From positions 1-64,000 of the forward strand of contig KL370852.1 in the NCBI GenBank assembly GCA_000702025.1: a stretch of 64,000 nt of DNA, written 5' to 3'. Under the pieces are notes generated by a model that saw nothing but the letters and a program-made list of their open reading frames with translations, ran no database searches and was not told the origin of the DNA. Both the position numbers and the translations under genes were made by a program. Source of the DNA: Blautia schinkii DSM 10518 (GTDB lineage: Bacteria > Bacillota > Clostridia > Lachnospirales > Lachnospiraceae). Shown in pieces: positions 5,979 to 36,828 of this stretch (position 1 is the stretch's first letter; each line of letters opens with the position of its first letter).

Positions 5979-6410
5979 TCAGATGACGATTCCCATGTCT
6001 TGCATACCCTCTGCAATACTATCCATATCGTCATAATTGCAGTTCTCGCTCCACTTCTCTTTGCTCCAGACTTCAATCCGGTTCAGGTTACCCGTCAACA
6101 CTACATCCTTATCCAGACCAGCGAATTCCCGTAACGTCTGAGGTACGAGGATTCTCCCCTGCTTGTCCAGTTCACAGGTCGTAGCACCTGCCACAAAGAA
6201 TCGTGAGAAGGTTCTTGCGTTTTTGTTTGTAAGTGGTAATGCTCTGAGTTTCTCTTCAAAGGCTGTCCATTCGTCCATAGGATAAATGGAAAGACAACCA
6301 TCAAGCCCTTTAGTCAGGACAAACTCTTCCCCTAAGAGTTCCCTGAATTTAGAGGGGATAATCAGACGCCCCTTCGCGTCGATCGTGTGATTGTATTCTC
6401 CCATGAACAT
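5979..6410 (-). CDS. mraZ: Transcriptional regulator MraZ
   Basis: MraZ is a SpoVT/AbrB-like DNA-binding protein that binds repeats upstream of its own gene and tunes the division operon. The protein is 143 residues and begins [15 protein letters not shown], the standard N-terminus, with two tandem AbrB-like half domains. The start is supported by AGGTGA six bases upstream. Matching direct repeats are found at 6481-6527, just after a promoter. Confidence 0.98.
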
Positions 6411-6601: not shown

Positions 6602-6889
6602 ATGGGACCCCGCAAAGTTGTTGAACGGCGAGGAGATGGGGATTGGGGGTGGGGCAGGCTATGTGTGTGGGCGGCAGTTGCACGCTTCCCTTCAACTAAT
6701 TGTCAACTGCGACTAAGGCGCTCACGAAGAGCGTTCGCGCCTAAGTCTTAGTAGACAATGGATTTTCAGGGGCGCTTTCGCAAAACTGCCGCCCACACAC
6801 ATAGCCTGCCCCACCCCCAATCCCCATCTCCTCGCCTGCCTCTACGTTTGCACCCCTCGGTTGGTGATGTGCGTTTTCGCCGGGAGGGT
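6602..6889. repeat. Palindromic element, copy A: conserved core in perfect inverted arms
   Basis: Left arm 6627-6679 and right arm 6784-6836 are perfect 53-bp inverted repeats. They enclose a 104-nt core (6680-6783) that itself folds: 6688-6690 with 6769-6771, 6699-6704 with 6754-6759, 6711-6720 with 6738-6747 (one mismatch), and a GCTC/GAGC tip. Short flanks (about 6602-6626 and 6837-6889) also recur in copy B near 36.6 kb. The element lies after the lgt terminator and before the mraZ promoter. The left arm strand is G-rich. No protein-coding frame is convincing. The family is not one I recognise. Confidence 0.85.
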
Positions 6890-31582: not shown

Positions 31583-34273
31583 ATGAGAAAAAAAGCACGC
31601 CGCACCTATATACTTGCGTATACAATATTGTTCTGCTTGTTTGCAGGCATTATTTATGCATACTTTGCCATCCAGGGAAAGTCCTTTATCTGGGGCCCCC
31701 AGTCCGATGGTATGCGCCAGCACTATATCAGCCTTGTATATTATGGGGAATTTCTCCGTAGCCTTCCAAGGCAGATTTTTGTGGAGCACACCTTTCCCAT
31801 GTGGGATTTCCAGATGGGGTATGGCGCGGATATTCTCACCACACTTCATTACTATACGATCGGCGACCCGCTGAATCTGCTTTCTGCCCTGGTACCGCCA
31901 CGATACACCGAATATCTCTATGATTTTCTGATACTGCTCCGGATGTATCTGGCGGGGGCGGCTTTTTCGGCCTACTGCCTGTACCGCGGCAGAACACATG
32001 CCGCCACATTACTGGGAGCCATCATTTACACCTTTTCCGGGTGGATTCTGTTTTGTGGATTCAGACATCCTCTTTTTATCAATCCCTGTATCTACTTTCC
32101 TCTGCTCCTTTTGGGCGTGGAGAAAATATTCCGTGGAACACCCAGGAAAACTGCCTCCTGGCTCTATGTAGGTATGGTCGCAGTCTCTGCATTGTCAAAT
32201 TTTTACTTTTTCTATATGATAGGGATTCTCGTTGTGGCATACGGGATTTTCCGATATTTTTCACTCTTCGGGAGGCGCGGACTGAAAAGCGCTCCAGGTT
32301 GGGCACTTCGGTTTGCACTTTACTCTGTGACCGGAATTCTGATCGCCATGCCGATACTGCTGCCCGTTTTGAGTGCCGTAGCGGAGACAGGAAGACTAAA
32401 CGCCGGACCATACGTCCCGGGGAGCTACTCTTCCTATTATTATTTCAATCTCATCCCGGCGCTCTTTGGTAAATTCCAGTCCCACCACACCATTATCGGT
32501 GTGTCGGTGATCTGTCTGCCATGTCTGGCAATCTTATTCCTGCGCAAGGGAAAATGGGCGCTGAAAGCCGGATTTTTGTTCCTGCTTATGCTATTATGTG
32601 TCCCATTTGCCGGCCATATTTTAAACGGTTTCACCTATGCCACCAACCGTTTTAGCTGGGCAATGGTGCTCATGCTTTCTTATTTGTTTGTACTGGGTTA
32701 CCCGTATCTTTTCCGGCTCAAGCCAAGATTACATCTCTTGGCGGCCTTATCCTTGCTTCTATATGCTGCATATGTAACCTTCGTCCCTGTCCTGCGTGAT
32801 GCCTGGAGCCTTAAGACAGCTGTCCTCGCAGCAGCTACAGCACTTATCCTGCTGGCCGCACGCACGCCCCTTCGCAATAACCGCAGTCTCCAATTTGTTT
32901 TTGCGTTTGTGGCTGCAACAGCAGGAATCCTGGTAAATGTGAATTACAATTTTTCCCCTCAGAGCAATCCGCGCTCAGCCATCAAGGATTTCGTGGATTC
33001 CGGTACTGCGTATGACCTGGCATACAGCTCTCTGTCAGAGGAAATTGCCAAGCTGCCTGATATTGCAGATTACCGTTTCGAACAGATGGGCACTGAGCTT
33101 CAGTTTAATGCCTCTCTTCTCACGCGGCAAAACAGCGGACAATATTTCTTTTCGCTGGTGAACGGAAATTTTAACCGCTATCAGGAAGAGACCGGATTTA
33201 ACAAACCCTATGAACAACGTATGCAAAACCAGAACGGCCGTGCCTTTCTCATGAAACTTGCCTCCATGCGTTATTTCACCGGACGGCAAAAATATGTACC
33301 CTACGGCTATGAGAAGCTGTCTGATTTTGAAGGCCCAGACCCCACGCCGGGAGAAACAAGTAATGCCGTAATCTGCGAGGACAAAAATGCGCTGCCCTTT
33401 GCCTACACCTATGACCGCTATATCCCCAGAGATACCTATCTGTCTATGAGTATGGCAGCCCGCCAACAGGCTATGCTTCAGGGTGTGGTACTTGAGGAAA
33501 GTGCCCTGCCTGTATGTACACCCGAGGATTTATCCGAGAATCGCCCCTATCTCATCGCAGCCTCCGACGGACTTACTTTAGATGGAAATAAAGTGGAGGT
33601 ACACAAGCGGGGCGCTTCTCTCACGCTGTCCTTCAATGGTCTGCCTCGCTGTGAGACGTATGTGGTATTTGAGGGCCTTAACTTTTCCGGTCCCACCAGT
33701 GCCAGAGGAAAAACCGAGACAATCCTCAATCTTCAATTATCCGGCACTGCGGGCAAAAAGACAGTGGAACGCATGTTGTCCTTTGTATCAGAGAAGAACA
33801 ATTTCTACAGCGGCCGCAGAGATTTCATCGGTAATCTCGGATATCAAAAAAAGGCCTTTTCCAAGGTCAAAATAACTTTCCCTGAAAAAGGCCTTTATTC
33901 ATTTGATCAGATGGAAATCTGCTGCCAGCCTATGACGCGCCTGAACGATTATGCTGCCGCACGCCGGGCTAATGTCCGCAGCCTGCCACGTTTCTCCACA
34001 AACCAGGTGCAAATGGACCTCCATCTCGACACTTCACGGGCAGTTGTGTTTTCCATTCCGTATTCTAAGGGCTGGAAAGCATGGATAAACGGTAAGTCCA
34101 CAGAACTGAAACAGGCAAACACCCTCTATATGGCCGTGGAAGCCGCCCCCGGTGACACAGAAATACTTCTGCGCTACCAAACGCCGGGACTTTTGCCCGG
34201 GCTCGGACTCTGTATTCTGGGAATCCTGCTTGCCCTGGGGATGCGCTTCATCAGGTCGAAACAGCCTACATAG
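31583..34273 (+). CDS. YfhO-family polytopic membrane protein
   Basis: This 896-residue membrane protein has about a dozen hydrophobic segments in its first half, a GT-C-like layout and a large extracellular part. A C-terminal segment (VVFSIPYSKGWKAWINGK) is typical of bacterial YfhO proteins, after which a last membrane helix near 870-890 follows. Bacillus YfhO is linked to lipoteichoic-acid glycosylation, so a role in surface-polymer sugar transfer is likely but inferred. It starts 2 bp after arcC with no strong ribosome binding site, implying coupling. Confidence 0.85.
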   Translation: MRKKARRTYILAYTILFCLFAGIIYAYFAIQGKSFIWGPQSDGMRQHYISLVYYGEFLRSLPRQIFVEHTFPMWDFQMGYGADILTTLHYYTIGDPLNLLSALVPPRYTEYLYDFLILLRMYLAGAAFSAYCLYRGRTHAATLLGAIIYTFSGWILFCGFRHPLFINPCIYFPLLLLGVEKIFRGTPRKTASWLYVGMVAVSALSNFYFFYMIGILVVAYGIFRYFSLFGRRGLKSAPGWALRFALYSVTGILIAMPILLPVLSAVAETGRLNAGPYVPGSYSSYYYFNLIPALFGKFQSHHTIIGVSVICLPCLAILFLRKGKWALKAGFLFLLMLLCVPFAGHILNGFTYATNRFSWAMVLMLSYLFVLGYPYLFRLKPRLHLLAALSLLLYAAYVTFVPVLRDAWSLKTAVLAAATALILLAARTPLRNNRSLQFVFAFVAATAGILVNVNYNFSPQSNPRSAIKDFVDSGTAYDLAYSSLSEEIAKLPDIADYRFEQMGTELQFNASLLTRQNSGQYFFSLVNGNFNRYQEETGFNKPYEQRMQNQNGRAFLMKLASMRYFTGRQKYVPYGYEKLSDFEGPDPTPGETSNAVICEDKNALPFAYTYDRYIPRDTYLSMSMAARQQAMLQGVVLEESALPVCTPEDLSENRPYLIAASDGLTLDGNKVEVHKRGASLTLSFNGLPRCETYVVFEGLNFSGPTSARGKTETILNLQLSGTAGKKTVERMLSFVSEKNNFYSGRRDFIGNLGYQKKAFSKVKITFPEKGLYSFDQMEICCQPMTRLNDYAAARRANVRSLPRFSTNQVQMDLHLDTSRAVVFSIPYSKGWKAWINGKSTELKQANTLYMAVEAAPGDTEILLRYQTPGLLPGLGLCILGILLALGMRFIRSKQPT

Positions 34274-36401
34274 ATTTACGTTCCGCGATTTCCGCCATCT
34301 TTGCCTCATTGAGTCTTGTGTCACCGTGGACACGGCTGTAGGAAAGATATCCGTTCATACGGTCAATCTTAGTGAGGTTGGTGGAACCGCACACCGGACA
34401 CACATCCATCTCAAGCTCCTCGTGTCCGCAGTCGTCGCAATACGCCAGGGACAAATTGACGCCCTCATAATATCCAAGTGCCATGGCGCGTCGGATCAAA
34501 GTGCGGATTGCTTCGTGGTTGTAACCGATGGGATAACGTACATACTGAATCTTGCCGCCGTTACAAAGCTCCCAGAAGCGTCCCTCTAAATCCTGCTTTT
34601 CTATAGGCGTCACATCTTCGGTCACATGACAGTGGAAGCTGTTGCTCACGTATGGACGGTCGGAAACCCCTTCCACAATTCCGTACATCTTACGGAACTG
34701 CTCTACCTGCAGACCACAGAGGCTCTCTGCCGGTGTACCATAGATTGCGTAGAGGTTTCCGTCCTCCTGCTTAAACTGGTTCACCTTATCATTGATATAT
34801 TTCAATACCTCAAGCGCAAACTGGCCGTCCTCGGCAATGGATTTGCCATTGTACAGCTCCTGAAGCTCATTGAGGGCCGTGATGCCGAAAGAGGCAGTCA
34901 TGGGCTTAAGTATCTTACTGATTTTCTCATGTGGCTTGAGATGTCCGCCATAGAAACCGCCCTCACAGTAAGCAAGAGGATTGGTGGACGCTCTCATCTG
35001 TCCTAAATATTCATAAGTACGGATATGCAGACTCCGTATCATTTCCAAATAAAAATCAAGAACTTCATAGAAATCCCGGCTCTCCGCACGTGCCTTGGCA
35101 AGAATCATGGGCAGATGCAGACTTACCGCACCCACATTGAAGCGGCCTACAAATACAGGGGAATCGTTCTCATCCGCCGGGTACATGCCGCCCCGCTCAT
35201 ACCACGGACTTAAGAAAGCACGGCATCCCATAGGGCTGATCACTTTCCCGTAGCGCTTATACATGCTGGAAATATAACCCTCACCGGACATGGAAAGCCA
35301 GTCTGGATACATGGTCTTTGCCGAGCAGTCAACTCCGGCCTCAAACACATCCTCACAGCATTTTCCGGTTCCGTGAATGTTTTCATCATAAAGAAATACG
35401 ATTTTGGGGAAAAGTACGGGCTTTTTGTGGCCTTCTTTTCCCTGTCCGCCCTTGTGTACTTCCAAAAGAGAAATGGTGCACATTTTCTCAAACTGTGTGG
35501 TCCCAAGTCCCAGAGTGACGGTCACAAAGGGGTAGTCCCCGCGGGAGGAGCCTACAGTATTCAGCTTGTATTCGATTCCCTGCCAGCCCTGGTCAAAGTC
35601 TCTGCGCACCTTGTCAAGTGCGTATTCAATCGCCTTTTCCTCGCGGCCGGACCAGCTCTCATCAGCATATTTCAGGAATTCCCGCACATATTTGTCATAG
35701 CTTTTTTGTGCGTAGGGAGCCAGGATCTTGTCAACCTCCGGCACTGTGAAGCCGCCGTACTGCTGGGCTGCGGTGCTGAGGATGATATCGCCCATCACGT
35801 CAAAGGCCGTATCCAGCGTTTTCGGCTCATTGTACCACACATTTCCCATCTCGAAGCCGTCCCTGAGCACGGACGCCACGTCAAACAAGCAGCAGTTCAT
35901 GGTATCAAGGCGTGCGGACTGGTCATGGATGTAGATATAACCGTCTTTGCAGGCCTGGAGCTCATTGCGGTTCATGAAAAATTTGCGGTAAAGCTCTTTG
36001 TTCAGTTCATTGAAGATCAGACTGCGCTTCGTGGCTACCAGCGCACTGTCTGTGTTTGCGTTGCTTTTATCGCCGATGTAGCGGATGGCCTGGCTCTTGG
36101 TATATACATCGTCCATCATATGTATGAAATCAAGCTTGTAATTGCGGTAATCCCGGTAGCTCTTCGCCACGGCCGGATTCACACGCTCTAAGGCGCCCTC
36201 CACAATATTGTGCATTTCCTGGATGGCAATCTCTTCCTTACCGAGGGAATATGCGTGCTCCTCGGCAAAGCGGCAGATGAAGTCCTTCTCCTCCTGGGAA
36301 AAGGTGTACAGAATGCGGGCGGCTGATTTGTTTACGGCGGCCACTATCTTTTTGGAATTGAACTCTTCTCTTGTTCCGTCTTTTTTTGTCACATAAATCA
36401 T
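34266..36401 (-). CDS. nrdD: Anaerobic ribonucleoside-triphosphate reductase
   Basis: This class III enzyme reduces ribonucleotides to deoxyribonucleotides without oxygen. The 711-residue protein has an N-terminal ATP-cone (about 1-90), the catalytic barrel, a zinc site with two CxxC pairs near residues 658-676 (CDDC, CPVC), and the glycyl-radical site in MNGYLSYSR near the C-terminus. Its activase gene nrdG is not adjacent. The gene converges on yfhO with an 8-bp overlap. GGAGAAG precedes the start. Confidence 0.97.
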   Translation of the reverse strand: MIYVTKKDGTREEFNSKKIVAAVNKSAARILYTFSQEEKDFICRFAEEHAYSLGKEEIAIQEMHNIVEGALERVNPAVAKSYRDYRNYKLDFIHMMDDVYTKSQAIRYIGDKSNANTDSALVATKRSLIFNELNKELYRKFFMNRNELQACKDGYIYIHDQSARLDTMNCCLFDVASVLRDGFEMGNVWYNEPKTLDTAFDVMGDIILSTAAQQYGGFTVPEVDKILAPYAQKSYDKYVREFLKYADESWSGREEKAIEYALDKVRRDFDQGWQGIEYKLNTVGSSRGDYPFVTVTLGLGTTQFEKMCTISLLEVHKGGQGKEGHKKPVLFPKIVFLYDENIHGTGKCCEDVFEAGVDCSAKTMYPDWLSMSGEGYISSMYKRYGKVISPMGCRAFLSPWYERGGMYPADENDSPVFVGRFNVGAVSLHLPMILAKARAESRDFYEVLDFYLEMIRSLHIRTYEYLGQMRASTNPLAYCEGGFYGGHLKPHEKISKILKPMTASFGITALNELQELYNGKSIAEDGQFALEVLKYINDKVNQFKQEDGNLYAIYGTPAESLCGLQVEQFRKMYGIVEGVSDRPYVSNSFHCHVTEDVTPIEKQDLEGRFWELCNGGKIQYVRYPIGYNHEAIRTLIRRAMALGYYEGVNLSLAYCDDCGHEELEMDVCPVCGSTNLTKIDRMNGYLSYSRVHGDTRLNEAKMAEIAERKSM

Positions 36402-36523: not shown

Positions 36524-36828
36524 AGGGAACCCCGGAAAGTTTTTGGGGACGGGAGGGAGAAGGAAATCGGGTGCGGGGCGGCGGTGGTTTGGCTCTGTCT
36601 TGTCAGGCATTGCTCGCTTGCCTTCAACTAATTGCCAACTGCGACTAAGCAGCTCACGAAGAGCGTTCGCAGCTAAGTCTTCGTAGGCAATGGATTTTCA
36701 GGCGCGCTTCCGCAAAATGCCTGACAAGACAGAGCCAAACCACCGCCGCCCCGCACCCGATTTCCTTCTCCTGGCCTCTCACTACGTTTCCGCACCCTAT
36801 GGGTGGAGTGTTGTTTTCGCAGGGAGGT
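36524..36828. repeat. Palindromic element, copy B: conserved core in perfect inverted arms
   Basis: Left arm 36556-36611 and right arm 36716-36771 are perfect 56-bp inverted repeats; they enclose the 104-nt core at 36612-36715. The core matches copy A at 93 of 104 positions, while the arms differ from copy A, with only loose likeness in the outer half. Flanks near 36529-36541 and 36782-36828 match those of copy A. As with copy A, it lies between two minus-strand genes, directly upstream of the promoter of the downstream gene (nrdD). Confidence 0.85.

Follow-up and report, generated by a model that had tools for sequence, protein, structure and literature searches.

On sequence comparison, two long hairpins (copies A and B) in the 64-kb stretch of Blautia schinkii DSM 10518 DNA analyzed here, referred to below as the window, are two members of a large, dispersed family of non-coding hairpin elements. 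The best explanation, to which we gave a probability of about 0.56, was that this would be a mobile family of long-hairpin DNA in which one arm templates the correction of the other, either in place or at transposition. Copies occupied differing intergenic surroundings in the B. schinkii genome, and by its pattern of dispersal the family would be a mobile element.

Copy A was located between lgt and mraZ, and copy B was located between nrdD and an open reading frame (ORF) without a Pfam match. The earlier note, which was made from the window sequence, had named mraZ (5979 to 6410, minus strand) and nrdD (34266 to 36401, minus strand) as the neighboring genes, and both identities were confirmed by Pfam (PF02381, E = 6.6e-44, and PF13597, E = 4.3e-112, respectively); both genes adjoin the hairpins and lie outside them. 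The core of copy B (36612 to 36715, plus strand), which contains the middle joint, the inner helices and the tip loop AAGAG, matched the core of copy A (6680 to 6783, plus strand) at 93 of 104 positions, and BLAST of the core against its own genome gave at least 40 matches (the best 40 of 165 candidates). The copy-specific left arm of copy B (36556 to 36611, plus strand) was complementary to its right arm (36716 to 36771, plus strand) at 56 of 56 positions. A 53-bp perfect run flanked the core of copy A on either side (left arm, 6627 to 6679; right arm, 6784 to 6836; plus strand; 53 of 53 paired). Among the 11 core differences between the two copies were three swapped pairs (6688/6771 versus 36620/36703, 6703/6755 versus 36635/36687, and 6718/6740 versus 36650/36672) and one pair hit on both sides (6719/6739 versus 36651/36671), at which copy B has A.A. 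The earlier note's count of core identities, its arm coordinates for copy B and its list of compensated pairs were thus all reproduced. Comparison of the fold with shuffled sequences gave z values of -14.6 on the plus strand and -17.0 on the minus strand, with none of 100 shuffles equaling it on either strand.

Copy B is bounded on the left by an outer conserved segment (36524 to 36555, plus strand) with a GGAACCCCGGAAAGTTTTTGG-type joint, which was conserved in 75 aligned left flanks from the same genome, and on the right by a second outer conserved segment, CACTACGTTT...GTTGTTTTCGCAGGGAGG (36772 to 36828, plus strand), seen in the right flanks of copies among those listed in the alignment. 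Within the core, the left strand of the inner mismatched joint is AACTGCGACTAAG (36637 to 36649, plus strand); in a core alignment of 25 sequences (alignment A1), 12 of its 13 columns were either invariant or conserved at 90% or more. The right strand, CTAAGTCTTCGTA (36673 to 36685, plus strand), pairs with the left strand save for four family-conserved mismatches and has, in comparison with the typical pairing, a T in place of a C at one further position.

Copies read from several genomes had a common rod-like plan, and the length of the element, as read from several copies, was roughly 200 to 380 bp. From the outside inward, the order was an outer joint (GGACGC opposite GCTGTG in several genomes, with CCCCGGAAAGGTGTTGAACGG and CTACCACTACGTTT types in the B. 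schinkii genome), a long copy-specific arm, a middle joint (GAACTAA opposite TGGATTT in many copies), a short helix of variable sequence, an inner joint (AACTGCGACTAAG opposite CTAAGTCTCCGTA, containing four conserved mismatches) and the tip, in which NNG pairs with CNN around AAGAG. As judged from these copies, the conserved sequence is that of the mismatched joints and the tip, and the arms are free in sequence and conserved in structure.

The number and distribution of the elements were examined with patterns of differing stringency. An exact core pattern detected 56 matches in the B. schinkii genome, and a wider core pattern allowing up to three mismatches detected 113. Of 64 genomes from the genus, 4 were matched by the wider pattern and 60 were not. 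In BLAST searches of 61 relatives with the core, six genomes were positive, including that of B. schinkii, all of them from the same genus, and no match was detected in 24 genomes from 24 other families of the order. A covariance model of the core, built from 25 cores, matched 23 of 299 Lachnospiraceae genomes among the matches listed and 3 of 246 genomes drawn from the order, all three of which belong to the same family as the host. Three other genomes contained 34, 37 and 18 matches, among the matches listed and with fewer genomes per search, and the element was present in four of five genomes of one other genus (G189, G591, G593 and G594, the fifth, G592, giving no match), also among the matches listed. 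Carriers named by the narrower exact pattern were an uncultured Dorea sp. and two uncultured Lachnospiraceae metagenome-assembled genomes. The element had no match in a plasmid collection or in a phage collection, and a plasmid or phage origin was not supported. Among the open-access papers listed in literature searches, none was recognized as describing this family. At least 10 contigs of the B. schinkii genome (C1, C2, C18, C24, C26, C33, C34, C37, C43 and C57) start inside a copy or no more than about 100 bases from one, and the element therefore probably breaks assemblies.

Arm pairing was quantified in copies from the B. schinkii genome. Both flanks were available for 74 copies, of which 66 passed the landmarks; three of these were dropped for a misplaced landmark, leaving 63. 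Watson-Crick pairs accounted for 3226 of the 3303 arm pairs, with 11 gap events, and the number of mismatches per copy ranged from 0 to 5, with none in 19 of the 63 copies. Arm length varied between 42 and 65, and the lengths of the left and right arms were closely correlated (r = 0.98). The mean identity of left arms between copies was 62.6%. Core pairing was analyzed in alignment A1, which comprised 25 of the 42 listed cores. Double changes were detected in 13 of 21 pairs, with 87 double-change cells versus 6 one-side cells, and the covariation score was reached by none of 500 shuffles. Covariation was strong on four of five measures, the exception being the number of pair types, which was as high in 227 of 500 shuffles. 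The earlier note had proposed, from copies A and B, that pairing and not sequence is kept and had suggested aligning many copies for covariation. This proposal held up in the shuffle-controlled covariation, in the arm-length correlation and in the mirrored indels and rewritten half-joints described below. Neither of the observations that the note had named as counting against it, freely diverging unpaired arms or a loss of covariation with more copies, was made.

Evidence of copying between the arms was of two kinds. Alignment of six copies from one other genome (G220, with 34 matches) revealed three indels in the arms (9, 1 and 3 bases long), every one of which occurred in the left and the right arm alike. 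In two copies from the B. schinkii genome, one strand of the inner joint had been rewritten: the left inner-joint strand of L007- was the exact complement of the right strand, the right inner-joint strand of L062 (5169) was the exact complement of the left strand, and all four mismatches were gone in each case. Mirrored indels and rewritten half-joints are what template switching predicts, and the suggestion in the earlier note that the arms are homogenized in this way was thereby favored. Taken at the level of these alignments, they are clear evidence for joint change of the two arms and for the rewriting of half-joints from the partner strand.

The proposal that template switching gives rise to compensatory changes in RNA genes has been made in the accessible text of PMC8794818. 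Quasi-palindromes altered by template switching resemble the present elements in undergoing compensatory changes in one event by arm-to-arm copying, as described in the accessible portions of PMC8794818 and PMC7202029; the argument of the former, in that text, concerned RNA genes, whereas the present case concerns a multicopy family of mobile DNA whose arms reach 65 bp and in which indels are mirrored. Template switching within a strand predicts an excess of G-C and T-A over C-G and A-T pairs, according to the same part of PMC8794818, and this asymmetry was not found in four genomes (G000, G189, G591 and G593). G-C exceeded C-G in the left arm in all four, and A-T exceeded T-A in the three other genomes and was about equal to it in the B. 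schinkii genome. The left arm was purine rich in the three other genomes and G rich in the B. schinkii genome.

The time course of arm change bears on when copying between the arms would occur. One alternative, which we regard as possible, is that correction happens solely on movement: the second arm would be newly made on the first, by hairpin-primed or self-templated synthesis, and young copies would be perfect and then decay one-sidedly. The small number of mismatches per copy, despite a mean arm identity of 63%, is consistent with this alternative. Furthermore, the closest pair of copies in the B. schinkii genome (96% arm identity) had no two-sided and two one-sided differences, so that all of the differences in this pair were of the kind expected from decay after movement. 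The 25 closest pairs, which overlap and are not independent, contained 142 two-sided and 64 one-sided columns, and their indels comprised 12 that were two-sided and 20 that were one-sided or ambiguous.

Orthologous loci of genomes G189 and G591 were then compared. With pairs derived from RNAfold, all 21 candidate locus pairs together exhibited 62 two-sided and 182 one-sided changes. Twelve of the 21 were retained for direct alignment of the arms, those left out having a missing hairpin or split or poorer matches; flank divergence among the twelve was 2.3 to 13.4%, one retained pair (L268/L299) was also split, and another (L262/L283) differed at 23 of 85 core positions. In this set, 439 arm pairs were unchanged, 20 had a one-sided change, 4 had a two-sided change and 1 was gapped, and pairing was kept in the 4 two-sided changes. 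All four fell in L249, L265 and L268, whose flanks were the most diverged of the twelve (9.2, 11.0 and 13.4%) and which together had 11 one-sided changes besides. The other nine loci, with flanks diverged by 2.3 to 8.8%, had nine one-sided changes and no two-sided change. The excess of one-sided changes, both overall and at these nine loci, speaks for correction solely on movement. Against it, the four two-sided changes in 463 arm pairs exceeded the 0.59 expected if both sides were hit independently at the rate of the flanks (P = 0.003), and also the 0.44 expected for the three loci alone at 11% divergence (P = 0.001), though these three are the least certain orthologs. Movement-only correction would also need, in view of the conserved flanking segments and the few close sisters, repeated cycles that leave no sisters.

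One-sided changes at orthologous loci thus far outnumbered two-sided changes, and the latter were confined to the most diverged loci; therefore, in-place correction at these loci, if real, would be slow at best. The arms changed about half as fast as the flanks (28 of 926 versus 556 of 8905 bases; p = 2.8e-5), and so selection against unpaired copies or a reversion bias would also be needed.

For correction templated by the opposite arm, in place or at transposition, the following course can be envisaged. A mutation would first arise in one arm, and synthesis templated on the opposite arm would then copy the change across or revert it. The route could be template switching, as at quasi-palindromes, or hairpin-primed copying, and it could act either on resident copies in the course of replication or during the copying step of transposition. 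The transposing enzyme would read the joints and not the arms, probably on a folded single strand. A bolder version, which we consider rather doubtful, is that the element is a hairpin transposon that would transpose in folded single-stranded form, with one arm resynthesized on the other at each copying and only the joints being inherited as signals. If this were true, the arms would change without limit, and the element would be mobile DNA whose identity is its shape and not its sequence.

A different source for the compensatory changes would be a structured RNA, or RNA from both strands, with helices that evolve by compensatory mutation under selection. The strong covariation seen with controls, the stable fold and the conserved tip and internal loops, which are features of structured RNAs, would be accommodated by this explanation. 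A selected RNA strand should, however, show more G.U than A.C mismatches. In the landmark-bounded arms of the 63 B. schinkii copies, 24 G.T and 30 A.C mismatches were detected, and G.T/A.C ratios of 17:21, 25:19 and 9:4 were observed in three other genomes, where 31 of 33, 35 of 36 and 11 of 11 loci, respectively, were counted (77 of 80 in all; L278, L281 and L310 fell below the arm score). The pooled ratio for the four genomes was 75:74. When 68 copies were counted over their inner 40 columns alone, 22 G.T and 18 A.C mismatches were obtained, and an arm alignment that reached into the outer joints of 69 copies gave 99 and 79. As G.T was not favored over A.C, a transcribed RNA is unlikely. The scarcity of one-side cells in the core in comparison with double-change cells and the mirroring of indels in both arms also argue against an RNA. 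Furthermore, the 64-kb window had no Rfam match at the gathering score, and a search of ten loci returned nine matches, all below threshold and mostly to eukaryotic hairpin families. We therefore consider structured RNA improbable. Equal numbers of G.T and A.C mismatches, mirrored indels and rewritten half-joints showed, insofar as sequences can, that the pairing is maintained as Watson-Crick DNA rather than as RNA. Compensatory stem changes are commonly taken to prove that an RNA is functional; in this natural family of many copies, covariation appears without G-U tolerance and with mirrored indels. The family can consequently be used to test how far templated copying between arms, rather than selection, generates covariation.

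A role for the host was considered with respect to gene context. The earlier note had linked the two window copies to essential-gene promoters. In a crude ORF survey of 63 copies with loose core anchors, the neighboring gene at the left end was oriented away from the element in 40 and towards it in 22, with 1 uncalled. This orientation was mixed, and a promoter link of the mraZ/nrdD type is therefore weak or due to chance. Nothing was found in favor of the arms being copy-specific barcodes, as the note had also suggested. DNA hairpins selected by the host as boundary, terminator or nucleoid sites, with unpaired arms selected against and an ordinary transposase spreading the copies, would fit the slower change of arms than of flanks at orthologous loci and the frequent position of left ends near gene ends in the crude survey, but are very improbable given the weak bias in neighbor orientation, the absence of matches, at the sensitivity of these searches, from 60 of 64 genus and 276 of 299 family genomes (among the matches listed) and the unlikelihood of compensatory indels of equal length arising independently.

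Mobility of the elements was also assessed from the arrangement of close pairs. All 20 close pairs of B. schinkii loci (gap of <1000 bp) were tail to tail, as were 24 of 27 from the wider searches (starts no more than 800 bp apart), giving 44 of 47 overall among the matches listed (p = 2e-23 against a quarter). Neighbors more than 800 bp apart and overlapping matches on both strands were left out of the doublet tally. In genome G594, nine doublets, one of them with an internal deletion, could be aligned over their full length, and similarity was lost beyond both ends. As far as these alignments go, the doublet is shown to be a dispersed unit in G594. Outer ends resembling AGTATACTTTTTTGT were present on both sides in several to most of the nine doublets, and the ends diverged in L220, L222 and L227. 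A 15-base end pattern with up to one mismatch had 27 matches in this genome versus 4 for a reversed control. The G594 doublets had a palindromic GTATAC at both ends, so that any target-site duplication is ambiguous.

In one locus of the same genome, L243 (G594:C24), AAAAAAGTATAG-like repeats resembling the doublet ends were observed around a promoter-like stretch before a small ORF; this may simply be a resemblance to an operator.

No transposase with the same ends was seen in 11 stretches of G594 around matches to the end pattern (ORFs were listed in one), and neither a transposase nor a target duplication nor a clean empty site could be established for the element. L250/L312 was considered as an empty site and rejected, the other genome retaining 10 bp of arm, which reads as a deletion. 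Matches to the Y1 transposase family (PF01797) in the B. schinkii genome were two in number and partial (profile positions 68 to 120 and 1 to 43 of 121). The hairpin nuclease subunit SbcD scored above the cutoff in the B. schinkii genome and in 26 of 30 genomes tested. Among these 30 were 14 carriers of the element, and SbcD was above the cutoff in 12 of them, below it in G144 and without a match in G317. Tolerance of the long hairpins is therefore not generally due to the loss of SbcCD, and this loss was rejected as its cause.

Comparison with known systems revealed both similarities and differences. REP, REPIN and BIME sequences (GTAG and CGTC repeats) are, as described in the accessible portions of PMC3733652 and PMC3116915, likewise high-copy, dispersed intergenic palindromes with inverted doublet units and varying stems, and an inverted arrangement was also found here in the 44 tail-to-tail pairs of 47 among the matches listed. 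REP units are palindromes of 20 to 40 bp in the accessible text of PMC3733652, whereas the arms alone of the 63 copies exceed this size, and the whole element, at roughly 200 to 380 bp, differs from REPs and REPINs in having mismatched joints in its interior and a tip into which further hairpins can be accommodated; to the RAYT (Y1) transposase, which REP repeats flank, the B. schinkii genome had the two partial matches given above. In the main text of PMC3733652, words beginning with Clostridi, Firmicutes or Lachnospir are absent. Bacterial MITEs are similar in being non-coding and dispersed and in having inverted ends, and terminal inverted repeats were found in most of the nine aligned doublets of G594, the comparison having been made in that genome and not with the window copies. 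In contrast to MITEs, the hairpin element is conserved in its internal joints and tip, beyond the ends alone, its arms differ between nearly all copies, and neither a parent transposon was seen nor a target duplication established. The attC sites of integrons are recognized as a folded single strand, with a structure that is kept, a stem that varies and unpaired bases that matter. By analogy, the hairpins may be likened to attC sites in folded recognition, kept structure and variable stem, but their copies lie all over the chromosome. The family works like mobile repeats of the REPIN or MITE type and, given the size difference from REP units and the lack of a demonstrated transposase, it was filed under neither. 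With structure conserved and arm sequence not, it is a mobile element that ordinary repeat searches could miss.

Departures from the common plan were observed in several copies. Six copies of the B. schinkii genome (L021, L044, L047, L059, L062 and L069) carried an extra hairpin module in the core tip (TAATTTTCCATCGG... in those compared), and these modules had paired arms of their own that varied in sequence. Inverted-repeat inserts of about 160 bp were present inside two hairpin elements of G189 (L270, at about 1542 to 1704, and L278, at about 1285 to 1442), one in the tip and the other in a joint with CTAG on both sides; both were absent at the orthologous loci of G591. The left end region was present as a 65-bp tandem array in L086 and L092 of genome G014 (from about -447 to -29 of the core), and shorter left-end duplications were seen in other copies, including L024-, L030+ and L062+ of the B. 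schinkii genome. In L062 on the minus strand and one further B. schinkii copy, the left arm was seemingly absent, with the core meeting unrelated sequence just before CTAA. In L085 (G024:C115), the middle joint was as in the B. schinkii genome and the apical part was different and longer, and from this copy the elements look modular.
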